Shown here: piece after piece, positions 58,454 to 64,000 of the stretch | Layout: the number at the start of each line of letters is the position of its first letter | Position numbering within the stretch: position 1 is the first letter of the stretch | From: Paenibacillus alkaliterrae | Lineage (GTDB): Bacteria > Bacillota > Bacilli > Paenibacillales > Paenibacillaceae | DNA length: 64,000 bases | Assembly (NCBI RefSeq): GCF_021532375.1 | Contig: NZ_JAKGAP010000037.1 | Span: 1 to 64,000, forward strand | Reading direction: 5' to 3' | Program-made: the position numbers and the translations under genes | The notes under the pieces: model-generated | What the model was told of the DNA's origin: nothing | The model's database searches: none | Seen by the model: only the letters and a program-made list of their open reading frames with translations

Positions 58454-58933
58454 ATGCATATACAGATAGCTGCCGTAGGTAAGCTGAAGGAAAAGTATTT
58501 GGCGCTTGGCATAGCAGAGTATGCCAAGCGGCTCGGGCCTTACGTGAAGCTTACGCTCACGGAAGTGCCCGATGAGAAGGCGCCGGAGACGATGTCGGCG
58601 GCGGAGGAAGCGATTGTGCGCGAGCGAGAGGGCGAGAGGCTTCTGGCGCAGCTGAAGCCTGAGGCGCATGTGGTCGCGCTCGCGCTGGAAGGCGAGCTCT
58701 GGTCCAGCGAGGATCTCGCGGGCCAGCTCGATAAGTTAGCCACGTATGGGCGGAGCCACGTGGCTTTTGTTATTGGCGGGAGCACGGGTCTGGCTCCCGC
58801 AGTGTTGAAGCGCGCCCAGCAGAAGCTGAGCTTTGGGCGCATGACCTTGCCGCACCAGCTGATGCGTCTGGTGCTGGTGGAGCAGATTTATCGGGCGGTG
58901 AAGATAAATCGGGGTGAACCGTATCACAAATGA
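58454..58933 (+). CDS. rlmH: 23S rRNA pseudouridine methyltransferase RlmH
   Basis: RlmH (159 residues; [20 protein letters not shown] at its start) is a SPOUT methyltransferase of 23S rRNA position 1915 (E. coli numbering). Motifs include [14 protein letters not shown] and [14 protein letters not shown], and the C-terminus ends GEPYHK. In staphylococci this gene (orfX) is the SCC insertion target, with the att site in the codons for the YHK end. Here the same end is directly followed by accessory DNA with recombinases. Confidence 0.97.
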
Positions 58934-58936
58934 GGC
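58918..58936 (+). other. Candidate SCC-type attachment site in rlmH
   Basis: The last rlmH codons read CCGTATCACAAATGAGG. Staphylococcal SCC att sites lie in the same codons (pattern TATCAYAA then the stop codon). A second copy should mark the far end of the element, but none was found in the window, so the element would extend beyond base 64000. Confidence 0.5.
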
Positions 58937-59097
58937 GAAATTTTTGACCTTACATGCTTGCGGGGCGAGGGAAGTTGTCCCGCAGGCACAGATCAGCAGA
59001 CATGGAAATAGTTTGTAATTGGGCTGAAACTTTTGATTTCTTTTTGCGTATAACTTGTTTGTAGGACAATTCTGTCCTTAAGTTAGGGTCAGCGCTA

Positions 59098-59114
59098 ATT
59101 GGTTCGAATCCAAT
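59098..59114 (+). other. T-arm-like hairpin (possible tRNA remnant)
   Basis: ATTGG-TTCGAAT-CCAAT forms a 5-bp stem with the canonical 7-base TTCGAAT T-loop of tRNAs. A separate AGGACA/TGTCCT hairpin lies at 59063-59078. No full cloverleaf or CCA end can be drawn, so it is not called a tRNA. Confidence 0.4.
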
Positions 59115-59220
59115 CGGGTTCGTAGCCTTAATTGCCTCTCTAGTCATCCTTTCGATGGTAAGATATTGGTTAGACAACACGCCACTTCGAAACGAAGATG
59201 TTATTAAGGAGGGGACGCCC

Positions 59221-59331
59221 ATGAAGAGTAAGAGCATGATGAAAAGTAGCAAAGGTATTCTCAAAGCAGTTGGAGAGACCGGATGGGCGGTAGCTACGAA
59301 CTTAGTTGCATCAGGTGCTACGCTGACTTAA
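59221..59331 (+). CDS. 36-residue peptide of unknown function
   Basis: This short ORF encodes MKSKSMMKSSKGILKAVGE and ends VASGATLT, with no cysteine. The N-terminal third is lysine- and serine-rich, the rest moderately hydrophobic with Gly, Ala and Thr. AAGGAGGGG lies 6 bases before the ATG, one of the strongest sites in the window, and an intrinsic terminator follows the stop by 15 bases. It precedes the kinase gene. It could be a signalling peptide, a small toxin or a leaderless bacteriocin. I recognise no family. Confidence 0.6.
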   Translation: MKSKSMMKSSKGILKAVGETGWAVATNLVASGATLT

Positions 59332-59346
59332 GTACAGAATTCCTGA

Positions 59347-59377
59347 CTGAGCCCTCGACAGGGCTCAGTGTTGTTTT
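59347..59377 (+). terminator. Intrinsic terminator after the 36-codon gene
   Basis: A perfect 9-bp stem (59347-59355 with 59360-59368) with loop CGAC is followed by TGTTGTTTT. It would end a short peptide mRNA, with read-through into the kinase. Confidence 0.75.
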
Positions 59378-59445
59378 GAGTAATTAGTTAGGTGAGTTTG
59401 CTTGCAGTCTTTATACAAGTGATAATCGTTTGCGAGGTCGAAATT

Positions 59446-60666
59446 ATGGCTATTCCAGTGCACGAAGTTGAGCAATATTTACATGTACAAGCCCGAAAGA
59501 TCAATAGTCAGTTCTCAAATATGAAAGATGCTTCTGCCCTCTACGATGACTACTATGAAGATGTTGAAAATGAAAGTCTTCGGCAAATATTTCCACTACT
59601 TCATGCCGTGATGAATAATTTATTTGCCTTCATGAATCAAAAGCTTTCACCTGGGTACGGCGGGCATTTCAATGCAGATCCTAGCCGAGACTTGATTGAT
59701 GTAATTGAAGCTTTTCAGAAGCTTCAGGCTAATCTAAAGAAATCATCTGTCGCCTTTGAACTGGATCAATATTACATGGATTTGATCACAAGATGTAATG
59801 TTTTTTTGAGTAAGAGTGGAGGTAGTACGATTCCATCGGATTTCCCGATGATTGAACTGATTGAACATCGGGCTATATTTAGTATGATGAACGTCGTGGA
59901 AGTCAAACGTTCACCAAGTAAAGAAGCCTTCCAAACCCGACTCATCGGTGGTGGATCTTATGCTCAGGTTTTCAAATATAAAGATCCACATTATAACCGC
60001 TGGTTTGCCTTGAAACGGGCAAAGGCCGATTTAACGACAAAGGAACTACAGAGGTTTAAGAACGAGTACGAAATCACGCGAAAGTTGAATTCACCTTATG
60101 TCATCGAAGCCTATAACTACAACGACGAAAAGAATGAATATACCCTTGAGTATGCTAATGGCGGGACGCTCGCTGATTATATTCGTGCAAATAATACAAA
60201 GCTTGATATGCAGGACCGGCTTAAGCTGATTGGTCAGCTATTTAATGCTTTTATCTACATCCATGAGAAAGAGATATTGCACCGGGACATTAGTTATCAT
60301 AACATATTGATTCAGCATTACGATGAACCGTGGACTGTACTCAAAATATCGGATTTCGGACTTGTCAAAATCCCGGAAAGTTCTTTAACAAGTATAGATT
60401 CGAGTGTTAAAGGTTCACTAAACGATCCGGACTTAACTAAGGTGGGATTTGCAAATTACGAAGTGCGTCATGAAATTTATGCTCTGACCCAGGTTGTAAA
60501 CTTTATACTTTGCGGAAAGAAACACGGAAATGGAATCTACAGTAAGCGTCAAGGTGTAAAGGAGTTCCTTTTACAAGGGTTGGCTGCAGATATCAATGAA
60601 CGCTTTAGCTCTGTTAAAGATATGGCCGAAGCATTTCGTAGTGTAAGACATGAATTATTAAAGTAA
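59446..60666 (+). CDS. Protein kinase with helical N-terminal region
   Basis: This 406-residue protein has a C-terminal Ser/Thr-type kinase domain from about residue 165. The glycine loop is GGGSYAQV (168-175), the ATP lysine is Lys190 (ALKRAK), the catalytic loop is HRDISYHN (His279-Asp281, Asn286) and the metal motif is DFG (303-305), all intact. The usual GT-x-x-Y-x-APE segment is absent, so substrate recognition is unusual. Residues 1-160 are helical and unfamiliar, with no membrane segment. The ATG at 59446 has GAGG upstream; the ORF could extend to 59392. It is convergent with the recombinase gene. Confidence 0.85.
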   Translation: MAIPVHEVEQYLHVQARKINSQFSNMKDASALYDDYYEDVENESLRQIFPLLHAVMNNLFAFMNQKLSPGYGGHFNADPSRDLIDVIEAFQKLQANLKKSSVAFELDQYYMDLITRCNVFLSKSGGSTIPSDFPMIELIEHRAIFSMMNVVEVKRSPSKEAFQTRLIGGGSYAQVFKYKDPHYNRWFALKRAKADLTTKELQRFKNEYEITRKLNSPYVIEAYNYNDEKNEYTLEYANGGTLADYIRANNTKLDMQDRLKLIGQLFNAFIYIHEKEILHRDISYHNILIQHYDEPWTVLKISDFGLVKIPESSLTSIDSSVKGSLNDPDLTKVGFANYEVRHEIYALTQVVNFILCGKKHGNGIYSKRQGVKEFLLQGLAADINERFSSVKDMAEAFRSVRHELLK

Positions 60667-60723
60667 CTGAAGGGAAGAGAGTGCCAGGCCTGATGAATAT
60701 GGCATTTATCAGATAGCTGCAAA

Positions 60724-62373
60724 TCATATAGCAAAGATTAGTTTATGATTCAGTGTGTGGGCTTTTCCGGGCAAAGGAAAAGCCCCTTCCGCCATGTTGT
60801 CGGCAGAAGGGGCGACGATTAAAAAATGCTGTTCGGTTGTTTCGTCGAAGGCCAGCTCGATTTTATCTATCTGGCGTTTTTCGTTCAGCGAGATTTTCTG
60901 GATGATGAGGTGCAACAGGGTTTTCCGTTGGTCGAAGGACGACTCTTGCAATAGGTACTCGAAACGCTCGATCAAGGAGCGTACCTGTTCGTAGCTGACC
61001 GTTTGGGAATTGTCGCCGTTCAGCTCAAACTCGATTTCGGACTTCCGCGAAAGCAGTTGGTCACGTTCCGCGTCAAGCTCGCCCAGCCTTCCCGAGAAAA
61101 GCTCCCGATCGAAGTCATCCAGCTCGTACAGCTCGAAGTATTTCTTGCGCTTATCCTCGATCTGAGAGAGCTTAGTCTGGATAGCCTCAAGTTCCTCCTG
61201 TAGGGGCTGGATTCGGTTCTTTTTCCGGCTGTTGATGCTGGCGACGATGCCCCGAAGGATGTGCGGCTTGGCAAGCACTGCGCGTATTCGATCCGTAACG
61301 AACCGCTCGGCGTCGTCCTTGCGGATGCTGTTGGCGCTGCACACCGCGCTTCCTTTACTGCGGAAGTTGCTGCAGGAGTAGTAGGTACGCACGATCTTGC
61401 TGCCGTCCTTGGCTGTGTTCTTCGTGACGCTGGCGGTCATGGCCGCGCCGCACTTCGGGCAGCGGAGGATGCCGGTCAGCAAAAACTTGCCGTCGAAGCG
61501 TTTTGTGGAGGTGAACGACTTTTTGCTTCGGAGAAACTGCACCTTCTCCCAAAGCGTCCCGTCTATGATGTGATCGTGAACGCCGTCGACCAGAATCGGC
61601 TCGGCGCTCTTTCCCCTGCGGCGCTTCTCACTCCAACATTCGTAACGGTTATACCTTATTTTACCGGTATAGAAGGGATTGTCCAGAATGTCCTTCACCG
61701 AGCAGATGGAAAAAGGCCGGTTCATCTTTGTTTTGTAGCCGTCGTGATTGAGCTGGTTTGCGATGGAACGGTATCCGTGGCCGTTGCTGAACATCTCGAA
61801 GATGCGCTTCACGACGGCAGCCTCCTCAGGGACGATTTCAATGACTGTCTTTCGCTTGTGAGCACCTGCGCTGCCGAGGTCCACGATCGTATAGCCGAGC
61901 GGCACCTTTCCGTTGTGTTTCCCCGTCTTAGCGCGATATTTGAGGCCCATCTTGACATTCTCGACTATCGTATTACGTTCAAGTTCTCCGACAGAGCCCA
62001 ACATGGAAAGAGCGAACTTGCCCATCGCTGAGGAAGTATCGAAGTTTTCGGAGAATGATCGGAACTCGACATTGTACTTCCGAAGTTCCTCGACGATCTG
62101 AAGCAAATCAATCGTGTTACGCGCCAATCTATTGAACTTCCACACCAATACAAGATCTATCATCCCCGCTTTCGCGTCCCGAATCATCTGCTGGAGCTCG
62201 AAGCGCTTTTCGATGCTCTTGCCGCTCACGCCACGGTCGGCGTACTCTTTGAACACCGTCATCTCATACATTCGGCAGTAGGTTCTAAGTGTCTCCAACT
62301 GTGCGTCTATGGAGTACCCATGTTCGGCTTGTTCCTCTGTACTCACGCGAACATATATTCCCACTCTCTTCAT
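60724..62373 (-). CDS. Large serine recombinase, CcrB-like
   Basis: This 549-residue recombinase has the N-terminal resolvase domain (RVGIYVRVSTEEQ, catalytic Ser11; NRLARNTIDLLQIVEEL), the recombinase domain (GHGYRSIANQLNHDGY, NPFYTGKIRYNRY) and a zinc ribbon (CPKCGAAM, YYSCSN, VCSANS), ending with a coiled coil. Motif for motif it resembles staphylococcal CcrB, the enzyme that moves SCC elements at rlmH. AAAAGGAATG precedes the ATG. It begins 19 bases after the gene at 62393-63961, as ccrB follows ccrA. Confidence 0.92.
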   Translation of the reverse strand: MKRVGIYVRVSTEEQAEHGYSIDAQLETLRTYCRMYEMTVFKEYADRGVSGKSIEKRFELQQMIRDAKAGMIDLVLVWKFNRLARNTIDLLQIVEELRKYNVEFRSFSENFDTSSAMGKFALSMLGSVGELERNTIVENVKMGLKYRAKTGKHNGKVPLGYTIVDLGSAGAHKRKTVIEIVPEEAAVVKRIFEMFSNGHGYRSIANQLNHDGYKTKMNRPFSICSVKDILDNPFYTGKIRYNRYECWSEKRRRGKSAEPILVDGVHDHIIDGTLWEKVQFLRSKKSFTSTKRFDGKFLLTGILRCPKCGAAMTASVTKNTAKDGSKIVRTYYSCSNFRSKGSAVCSANSIRKDDAERFVTDRIRAVLAKPHILRGIVASINSRKKNRIQPLQEELEAIQTKLSQIEDKRKKYFELYELDDFDRELFSGRLGELDAERDQLLSRKSEIEFELNGDNSQTVSYEQVRSLIERFEYLLQESSFDQRKTLLHLIIQKISLNEKRQIDKIELAFDETTEQHFLIVAPSADNMAEGAFPLPGKAHTLNHKLIFAI

Positions 62374-62392
62374 GAAGCATTCATTCCTTTTC

Positions 62393-63961
62393 TCATGCTC
62401 GCCATTCCTCCTGAAGTAAATTTGTCACGTCGATATGACCGATAGGGCCGCTGCCGTAGAGCCGTGCTTCCTGAATGCATCGATTAGGTGGGAGAGTGAT
62501 CTTGTCGATAAATAATCTCAAGAACTGCCGCTGCATGTCTGCATTTGCCGATTGAAGAACGGCACGTATTTGCTGGATGGCAGATTGGATGTGAGCGGGA
62601 TTGATGGCTTCTGTCTTCGTTGCCCGGATCTGTTGTTCCACGTTATCCTTCATGGTCTGAAGCTCTTGTAAATGGATTTGAATGCTGCCGATGAGATTTC
62701 TAAGTTCTTCCTTGGTGATTGCTCCGTCTTCATAAGTCTGAAACAGTTGTTTTCGTTCTGCTTCCAGCAAGGTTAGTTCGATTTGAAGACGATTCGCATG
62801 TTCCAACAATGGTGACGATGTTGCTGATTGTTTCGCATGGATTGACGTTGTGATCCGCTTAACTATCTGTGATGAACTAACGATTGCTTGAAGCAGGTTG
62901 AAAAGCCATTCCTCGATTTTATCAGCTCTTACGTAATTTGGCTTACAGGCAGCAATCCCTCTGGCCAGATAGTTCCCGCAAGCATAATAGTGATTCATCT
63001 TTATGGAACCGTTTTTTCGTAAGGCTTTGGTATGCATAGGTATCATGCCTTGTCCGCATTGAGGACACTTGAGCAGCCCGGTAAGGGGATAGAGCCGCTG
63101 GATCAGCCTCCGAGGAGGGCGGGACCTCTGGCTCAAAACGAGCTGCACCTGAATCCAGAGGTCTGCGCGAACGATGGGGTCGTGATCGCCCTTAGCCCAG
63201 CCTACAGCGTGCTTGCTGCTATCTTTTCGGTTCTTCGAGACGTCAAACCTTACTTTCGCGATATAGTTCTGATTTGTCAGAATTCCTCTGACCGCCGGGA
63301 CGCTGAACAAGTATCCCCTCTTGGTCCGATGCCCTTCCATATTCAATCGATTCGTGATGGCCTTATAGCCGTAGTCGCCTGTAGCATAGAGCTCGAAAAT
63401 GCGCAGAACGAGTTCTGCTTCCTTGGGCACGATCTCCACGCAGGAGTCTCCTGTCTGAGGATTGCGAGTCCATCGATACCCTAGCACATTGTTGCCGCAG
63501 TTCCATTTTCCTTGTTTTGCCTTATGTACAGCTCCGAGGCTTGCGTTCTCCACGATCTGGTCGCGCTCCAGCTGCGCGGCTGCTCCCATCATCTGAAGCG
63601 TGAACCGTCCGAGAGTCGTATGGGTGTCGAACTGTTCGGTCAGGCTGATAAGGGCTACGCTATGGTTTGAGAGCAGGTCGACAATTTCCAGCAGGTCGGG
63701 AAGGGAGCGGGAGAGGCGGCTGAGACGCCAGATGATGACGTGCTGAAAGCTGCCCAGCTTCGCGTCTTCCAGCATCATCTTCAGCTGATTCCGGCCTTGA
63801 ATGGATTTTCCTGATACTCCTGCGTCGACATAGGTTTTATATACGTGAAGACGGTTGGTGGAGCAGTAGGAGCGAAGGGCTTCCAGTTGGGCATCAATGC
63901 TGAAGCCGTACTTTGCCTGCTCCTCGGTGCTGACTCTGCAATACAGCGCGGCGCGATTCAT
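62393..63961 (-). CDS. Large serine recombinase (upstream partner)
   Basis: This 522-residue recombinase has catalytic Ser11 in RAALYCRVSTEEQ, the resolvase core (IIWRLSRLSRSLPDLLEIV, FTLQMMGAAAQLERDQIVEN), the recombinase domain (YGYKAITNRLNMEGH) and a zinc ribbon (CPQCGQGM and YYACGN), followed by a coiled coil. It is clearly a different protein from its neighbour. The ATG at 63961 fits the family start, but the open frame continues to the window edge, so an upstream TTG start at 64000 cannot be excluded. Confidence 0.9.
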   Translation of the reverse strand: MNRAALYCRVSTEEQAKYGFSIDAQLEALRSYCSTNRLHVYKTYVDAGVSGKSIQGRNQLKMMLEDAKLGSFQHVIIWRLSRLSRSLPDLLEIVDLLSNHSVALISLTEQFDTHTTLGRFTLQMMGAAAQLERDQIVENASLGAVHKAKQGKWNCGNNVLGYRWTRNPQTGDSCVEIVPKEAELVLRIFELYATGDYGYKAITNRLNMEGHRTKRGYLFSVPAVRGILTNQNYIAKVRFDVSKNRKDSSKHAVGWAKGDHDPIVRADLWIQVQLVLSQRSRPPRRLIQRLYPLTGLLKCPQCGQGMIPMHTKALRKNGSIKMNHYYACGNYLARGIAACKPNYVRADKIEEWLFNLLQAIVSSSQIVKRITTSIHAKQSATSSPLLEHANRLQIELTLLEAERKQLFQTYEDGAITKEELRNLIGSIQIHLQELQTMKDNVEQQIRATKTEAINPAHIQSAIQQIRAVLQSANADMQRQFLRLFIDKITLPPNRCIQEARLYGSGPIGHIDVTNLLQEEWRA

Positions 63962-64000
63962 GCGTATTCCACTTCTGTATTGATGTAGTTGAATGGCCAA

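Follow-up and report, generated by a model that had tools for sequence, protein, structure and literature searches.

What kind of element lies behind rlmH in Paenibacillus alkaliterrae, and how close does it stand to the staphylococcal cassette chromosome (SCC), which inserts at the same gene end? The stretch analysed here, called the window, consists of the first 64,000 nucleotides of the 78,747-bp contig C101, one of 169 contigs in a draft genome. It contains an intact rlmH gene, whose terminal codons GAACCGTATCACAAATGA encode E-P-Y-H-K-stop. The accessory DNA behind this gene carries two intact genes for large serine recombinases (LSRs) in tandem, designated LSR1 and LSR2 (Table 1). An earlier note on this DNA had described this ending in YHK and the tandem pair behind it, and both the sequence and the protein domains confirm the description, with Resolvase, Recombinase and Zn_ribbon_recom domains present in each recombinase. 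An SCC-like mobile element has very probably integrated at the rlmH 3' end, with its left end inside the window; its attachment site (att) also appears to found arrays of small units. The element looks distantly related to the staphylococcal cassette by which methicillin resistance spreads, and this would place that cassette in a much larger Gram-positive family, in which the same gene end gathers many small gene packets.

CcrB-family recombinases and their association with rlmH

CcrB is the top NCBIfam model for both recombinases. LSR1 scores 447, 337 and 122 bits against the models of CcrB, CcrC and CcrA, and LSR2 scores 281, 258 and 102 bits; the curated cut-offs are 900, 900 and 700, so that both proteins fall far under what a CcrA plus CcrB pair, or CcrC, would score. 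The earlier note had singled out the second recombinase as strongly CcrB-like. This kinship holds for both, but the more CcrB-like of the pair is LSR1, the rlmH-proximal one, and the two remain below 900 bits.

In a tree of 35 sequences, the seven LSR1-type rows form one clade (support 100/100), as do the six LSR2-type rows (100/99), and the two clades join the remaining tree at different points. For the six hosts having both proteins, the unrooted branching is identical in the two clades: the window and P. whitsoniae, then P. thalictri, are set against SY21-1, P. pasadenensis and Cohnella fermenti, which fits a pair travelling together. Staphylococcal CcrB and staphylococcal CcrA form separate clades, CcrA being on a long branch. 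The Ccr phylogeny that the earlier note had called for groups LSR1, LSR2 and Clostridium proteins with CcrB, apart from TP901-1-type phage integrases, at a support of 88/78, which is below the tool's mark of 95/80. Judged by its placement in this tree, LSR2 is a second CcrB-family protein and not CcrA, so that the pair is not CcrA plus CcrB. A single origin of LSR1 and LSR2 was neither shown nor rejected (approximately unbiased test, p 0.235).

The pairing of such recombinases with rlmH recurs across related bacteria. Matches to the CcrB model at E <= 1e-60 were collected from two overlapping sets, 40 genomes of relatives and a sample of 296 genomes of the order, and were found in 8 and 57 genomes, respectively. 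Of the 74 matches that reach at least 240 bits, a line set after the scores were known, 62 share a contig with rlmH and are found downstream of it, no more than 45 kb away; a further 11 are on different contigs from rlmH, and the remaining one is distant from the gene, yet within a secondary att array. Such a concentration indicates that the pairing of recombinase and rlmH is not due to chance. Counted by genome, 41 of the 50 with a match of this strength have one near rlmH, while the other nine have all of theirs on other contigs. Of the 14 weaker matches (200-240 bits), four are near rlmH, four on other contigs and six far away. The earlier note had regarded the DNA behind rlmH as accessory; in the relatives, this DNA indeed differs from that of the window, the blastn matches ending within 148 bases (among 28 of 64 matches listed).

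There are 80 named loci in all, of which 18 were examined. In eight of them rlmH lies within the fetched flank, namely in Paenibacillus whitsoniae, P. pasadenensis, P. sp. SY21-1, P. marchantiophytorum, P. tritici, Cohnella fermenti, C. caldifontis and Clostridium homopropionicum. The ten without rlmH in reach include seven with an att core (L088-L091, L094, L096 and L152) and three (L093, L095 and L145) with neither in the flank. In Clostridium homopropionicum (L087:1545-3649), a single CcrB-like recombinase adjoins rlmH, with att in the end of that gene. The loci L088-L091 are clostridial or other Bacillota loci in which a recombinase is accompanied by an att core, with no rlmH inside the fetched flank.

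Att copies and arrays of att-bounded units

The att pattern GARCCNTAYCAYAARTRR is present in 36 of the 40 genomes of relatives. The 25 genomes of the same genus, own genome included, contain 131 copies, as compared with a single match for the reversed control, and 24 of them have at least two copies, the exception being a genome of 63% completeness with none. With a slightly wider pattern, up to 16 copies per genome were found (36 genomes, all with a CcrB-model match; six control matches in total), and of 299 genomes from the class, 227 have at least one copy. Clusters also exist outside the family: among the matches listed, there are four copies in 24 kb (G709:C11) and three in 5.5 kb (G653:C3).

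The arrangement of the copies was followed in 42 regions, 26 starting at rlmH and 16 representing secondary arrays or named loci. These regions include six added genomes with several copies (G105, G127, G206, G005, G225 and G252) and four named loci with at least two; of 20 fetched stretches, the 10 that had a single strict copy were left out, as was S. arlettae (L094, three copies). All 128 strict copies in the regions have the orientation of rlmH, with none opposite, and 21 of the 26 rlmH regions hold at least one further copy. Between the copies lie 86 units with a median length of 4.1 kb, the smallest being 777 bp and 57 being under 6 kb, although the strict pattern may miss degenerate copies and so merge units. 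No recombinase was detectable in 71 of the 86, down to the one of 777 bp (tblastn with 35 recombinases, 1e-6), and 11 of these 71 have a single frame of at least 80 amino acids. Of the 21 units that come first after rlmH, six contain an LSR and are flanked by att on both sides.

At the first att of some secondary arrays or sites, a left half of 20-27 bp resembles the rlmH end, while the preceding sequence is not rlmH; the sites are L062:19549(-), L065:17551(-), L075:3260(-), L066:6194(-), L068:1988(+) and L074:1424(-).

The units tend to carry matching arms. For each, the 22 bases to the right of the left core were compared with the 45 bases to the left of the right core by an inverted-repeat score, with permutations as the reference. 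The mean score within units is 13.41, a value reached by none of 5000 permutations, which average 11.24 (standard deviation 0.35); between the two sides of a single junction the score is 10.44. Units with a recombinase reach 16.80 (n=15; 0/5000). Those without one reach 12.69 against 11.28 (n=71; 1/5000), and the recombinase-less units under 6 kb reach 12.81 against 11.40 (n=54; 6/5000). Control windows shifted inward by 40 and 80 bases gave no excess (4964/5000 and 939/5000).

Codon trace, shared units and cargo

The att copies still read like the end of a gene. In a search that allowed any four mismatches to one consensus, 144 copies were found in the rlmH orientation and three in the opposite one. 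EPYHK-stop is spelled by 97 of the 118 copies away from the standard rlmH offset, two of which (C. caldifontis and P. pasadenensis) are themselves rlmH ends. Per site, substitutions amount to 27% at synonymous or stop positions, of which there are seven, as compared with 2.6% at the eleven others. By rank behind rlmH, the sequence is spelled by 26/26, 14/21, 14/16 and 10/12 copies, and by 16/22 at the fifth and later ranks. A simple reading of this pattern is that each att copy may once have formed the rlmH end; recombinase recognition could add to the conservation of the codons.

Some units recur in other places. Comparison of seven related pairs, the units being taken together with 400 bases of flank, showed homology running from the att core in three. 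For instance, a 777-bp DinB-like unit behind rlmH in G007 has an 834-bp counterpart in another genome, where it belongs to a secondary array (G021), with coverages of 99% and 91% at about 81% identity, and nothing is common outside the units. This unit with its flanks has some match in eight of 295 family genomes, own included, and a whole-unit match only in G021. Moreover, G002 and G127, which are labelled as different genera, have units with a common stretch of 2.07 kb at about 90% that starts at the att core, and a stretch of 1.3 kb at 97%, likewise from the core, is common to two arrays of G105.

The cargo was scanned in 144 proteins of at least 100 amino acids from recombinase-less units under 6 kb. 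Among the 25 of 144 Pfam families listed, short-chain dehydrogenases (8), alpha/beta hydrolases (7) and AraC-type helix-turn-helix (HTH) proteins (6) lead, and aminoglycoside 3-N-acetyltransferases and phosphotransferases (APH) occur three times each. In the G105 array near rlmH, a 1064-bp unit has one frame of at least 100 amino acids, which by eye resembles an aminoglycoside 3-N-acetyltransferase. PADLOC matches among the same proteins are few (WYL 4, parts of MADS, AbiE, IetAS, Old and AriA, among the 25 of 88 families listed). The view of the units as a defence island was set aside, with defence families few and metabolism and regulators leading in Pfam.

A proposed mechanism and its alternatives

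Judging from the anatomy and from Ccr biology, LSR1 and LSR2 would recombine the attP of a circular element with the end of rlmH, and integration would leave an att copy at each end and restore the E-P-Y-H-K-stop of RlmH. Successive att-bounded units, most of them recombinase-less, would accumulate in series behind rlmH as well as at some secondary sites, and those lacking a recombinase would be moved in trans by enzymes of the LSR1/LSR2 type. Direct observations in this scheme are the att copies, their orientation within the 42 regions, the matching arms of units, some breaks of homology at att and the location of the recombinases; excision, integration, movement in trans and the order of insertion are its proposed part. 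An array of recombinase-less units with matched arms is likely, though unproven, to be made of mobile cassettes. A wider proposal is put forward tentatively, with somewhat less than even confidence: in the Paenibacillaceae, and probably in other Bacilli, the rlmH end may be the platform of an integron-like serine-recombinase system, in which small, often single-gene units with inverted-repeat arms would be captured, stacked and exchanged between genera in trans, incoming units supplying the RlmH end. The supply of a working RlmH end by each incoming unit would explain why the non-coding copies vary almost only at synonymous positions. If single-gene units are mobile in trans, this would represent a second, serine-recombinase route to integron-like gene capture.

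Several observations weigh against these proposals. As regards the element itself, no second att occurs up to the end of the contig, 19.8 kb past rlmH, even at five mismatches to the consensus, and it is therefore seen at one end only; the support for the CcrB grouping is moderate (88/78). As regards the arrays, the 42 regions were selected for having them, and the arms were already known when the arm test was devised. This test is weak for recombinase-less units under 3 kb (13.04 against 11.48; n=25; 104/5000), and a control window 120 bases inward gave a small excess (10.23 against 9.61; 19/5000), so that part of the arm signal may be composition. At att position 9, which is taken here to belong to the crossover dinucleotide of staphylococci, the two ends of a unit agree no more often than expected by chance (0.66 against 0.64). 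The integron-like proposal in particular is weakened because homology runs from att in only three of the seven pairs, the shared stretch being internal to the units in the other four, because G379 has part of the DinB-like gene with no att core in the examined stretch, and because oppositely oriented neighbouring copies occur outside the 42 regions, in G133:C1 (7.5 kb apart) and G521:C3. Concordance of att positions at unit ends was also considered as a guide to the crossover point, and was left unused, with no excess at position 9 and a weak one at position 6 (25/4000).

The most serious alternative is that the arrays are ordinary composite SCC-like remnants, in which whole elements were inserted serially and then lost their recombinases and most of their genes, the small units being debris. 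Both composite elements and pseudo-SCC elements are known, and PMC10061031 reports composites of P. pinistramenti in which the rlmH-end repeat occurs several times; the four pairs whose homology does not begin at att and the weak arm match of the smallest recombinase-less units point the same way. Debris should lose matched arms, however, yet the 71 recombinase-less units keep theirs as a group, including those under 6 kb. Nor would debris be expected to recur as does the 777-bp unit, which is confined to its own limits in the secondary array of another genome, or to share 2.07 kb from the att core between two genera. The remnant explanation is thus regarded as doubtful, though quite conceivable.

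Two further explanations can be given little weight. It is very unlikely that the element is a prophage, or an island derived from a phage, with serine integrases that use rlmH by coincidence: phage serine integrases are 29.6-33.4% identical to LSR1 over 84-95% of its length (among 30 of 953 phage records listed), but the CcrB model fits best, TP901-1-type integrases stand apart in the tree, and the 15 downstream proteins scanned include none with a Pfam match to virion genes, five of them having no match at E 0.05 and the right part of the element lying beyond the contig. Equally improbable is that the att copies are scraps of the rlmH 3' end, left by gene conversion or duplication with no recombinase involved. 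The 20-27 bp of rlmH-like sequence upstream of the core at the first att of several secondary arrays would suit such an origin, but the copies in the arrays have several arm types, and these match the other end of the unit rather than the other side of the junction (13.83 against 10.86 in the 66 pairs in which the left site lacks an rlmH-like left half).

Relation to known systems

The element shares much with SCC and its CcrAB recombinases: the site at the rlmH 3' end with att in the final codons, the YHK-stop att core, tandem LSRs, a type I restriction-modification gene, and a 929-amino-acid protein that corresponds to Cch or a COG3378/D5-type helicase. A DUF960 gene lies near the recombinases in both, although upstream of them here and downstream of ccrB in the copy on an S. 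aureus plasmid. Unlike in SCC, the recombinases stay under the curated Ccr cut-offs, LSR2 belongs to the CcrB family and not to CcrA, a Prim-Pol domain is fused to the D5-type helicase, and relatives carry many small recombinase-less units. With recombinases of this kind, the element is SCC-like by anatomy and is not filed as SCC proper. The earlier note's idea of an SCC-type island with other cargo in a Paenibacillus-like host is supported by DUF960, RadC and the helicase and, at moderate strength, by the tree; the pair is not CcrA plus CcrB.

Its further suggestion, that the pairing of att and recombinase extends beyond staphylococci and macrococci, is right but not new. Insertion at rlmH was reported in 2018 for Enterococcus faecium (PMC6222049) and in 2023 for Paenibacillus pinistramenti, Bacillus cereus/wiedmannii and others (PMC10061031); PMC8407400 is also among the prior work. 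The Enterococcus cassette chromosome (ECC), whose transfer was demonstrated, resembles the present element in LSR-driven insertion at rlmH, an att of about 50 bp with inverted repeats, and variable cargo. It belongs to another host group, no tandem ECCs with several ccrAB sets were observed there, and the parts of that source that were consulted describe no single-gene units (PMC6222049).

The PolA-SSB islands at rlmH of Bacillus, P. pinistramenti, Niallia, Listeria and others likewise have large serine recombinases (two in several), a COG3378/D5-type helicase, mostly the rlmH site, restriction-modification cargo and composites with several rlmH-end repeats; most recombinase pairs lie downstream of rlmH. 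They differ in having a PolA-SSB pair, whereas Prim-Pol is found among the proteins scanned here, and the parts of the source that were consulted give no description of arrays of small units (PMC10061031). The CI-ccrDE islands at rimL also represent an SCC-related island with a Ccr complex, but at another site and with other recombinase types; the same source cites recombinases that act on SCC at rlmH without moving along and lists other genera with insertions at rlmH (PMC10581047).

Integrons gather short tandem cassettes of the same orientation, with adaptive cargo, at one fixed site, and the recombinases are encoded elsewhere. The arrays described here are similar in being tandem, same-oriented short units behind a fixed site, a likeness in working and not membership; they differ in that the recombinases are serine and not tyrosine recombinases and that att is a gene end. 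On the sequence evidence, the arrays resemble an integron run by serine recombinases, the movement of their units being unproven. The new part is the scale, with 62 of 74 CcrB-like recombinases of the host's order near rlmH, up to 16 att copies per genome, and arrays of recombinase-less units. Among the papers listed, no title or opening of an abstract on arrays of small rlmH units in Paenibacillaceae was found, in a search that was thin on subscription journals and did not include bioRxiv preprints.

Features of the locus and the other att copies of the genome

Table 1. Features at the rlmH end of the window
Feature	Position	Strand	Basis and remarks
rlmH	58454..58933	+	NCBIfam NF000985, 232 bits (cut-off 172); PF02590; 3' end is the probable integration site
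att core (attL), GAACCGTATCACAAATGA	58916..58933	+	Final codons of rlmH, read from the sequence
att right arm, left end of the element, GGCGAAATTTTT...	58934..58955	+	Sequence; served as the window's arm in the arm comparison
Cargo Ser/Thr protein kinase gene	59449..60666	+	Pkinase PF00069, 4.3e-30
LSR1, CcrB-like large serine recombinase	60724..62373	-	NF047343, 447 bits (cut-off 900); three LSR domains; tree
LSR2, CcrB-family, second tandem large serine recombinase	62393..63961	-	NF047343, 281 bits; tree

For LSR2, a start at the ATG at 63961 is more likely than at the TTG at 64000, where the listed frame begins. GC content was rejected as a marker of the island, being 0.478 on either side of the rlmH end within the window. 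Compared with kinases of defence systems, the cargo kinase scores 64 bits for MAD6 (cut-off 460) and 49 bits for PglW (cut-off 990).

Beyond the window, the next gene upstream of LSR2 encodes a DUF960 protein (PF06124, 78 bits), which in the Pfam scan is followed by RadC, a 130-amino-acid protein without a match, and the 929-amino-acid protein, which combines an N-terminal Prim-Pol (primase-polymerase) domain with a D5_N/DUF5906 helicase part. The genes for DUF960, RadC and the D5-type helicase are thus upstream of the recombinases and codirectional with them, and the search for a cch-like helicase gene proposed in the earlier note has found its object. Farther along the contig lie genes for an arginine-repressor-like protein, an HTH protein, ParA and HsdM.

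The pattern GARCCNTAYCAYAARTRR occurs five times in this genome, with four further copies on contigs C27, C121, C150 and C152. The arm of the window's element matches these with scores of 12 (C150), 12 (C27), 10 (C152) and 8 (C121). No partner of the window's att is claimed among them, because C150 and C27 tie and because, starting 258 bp to the right of the C150 att, the DNA matches that of G012, the nearest relative. A kinase gene behind the C150 att was considered as a marker of the empty site and was not decisive: in two relatives, a gene 46-48% identical to it is found downstream of rlmH at a distance of about 112 kb, and the G012 kinase, 84% identical, is on a different contig from the G012 rlmH. 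By eye, the C152 att (L061:9420-9490) lies at the 3' end of an apparent malate:quinone oxidoreductase gene, and its left side resembles a common arm type of the units. The C121 att (L060:1738, -) has an rlmH-like left half and lies just behind a short frame that, by eye, resembles the end of a tyrosine integrase.

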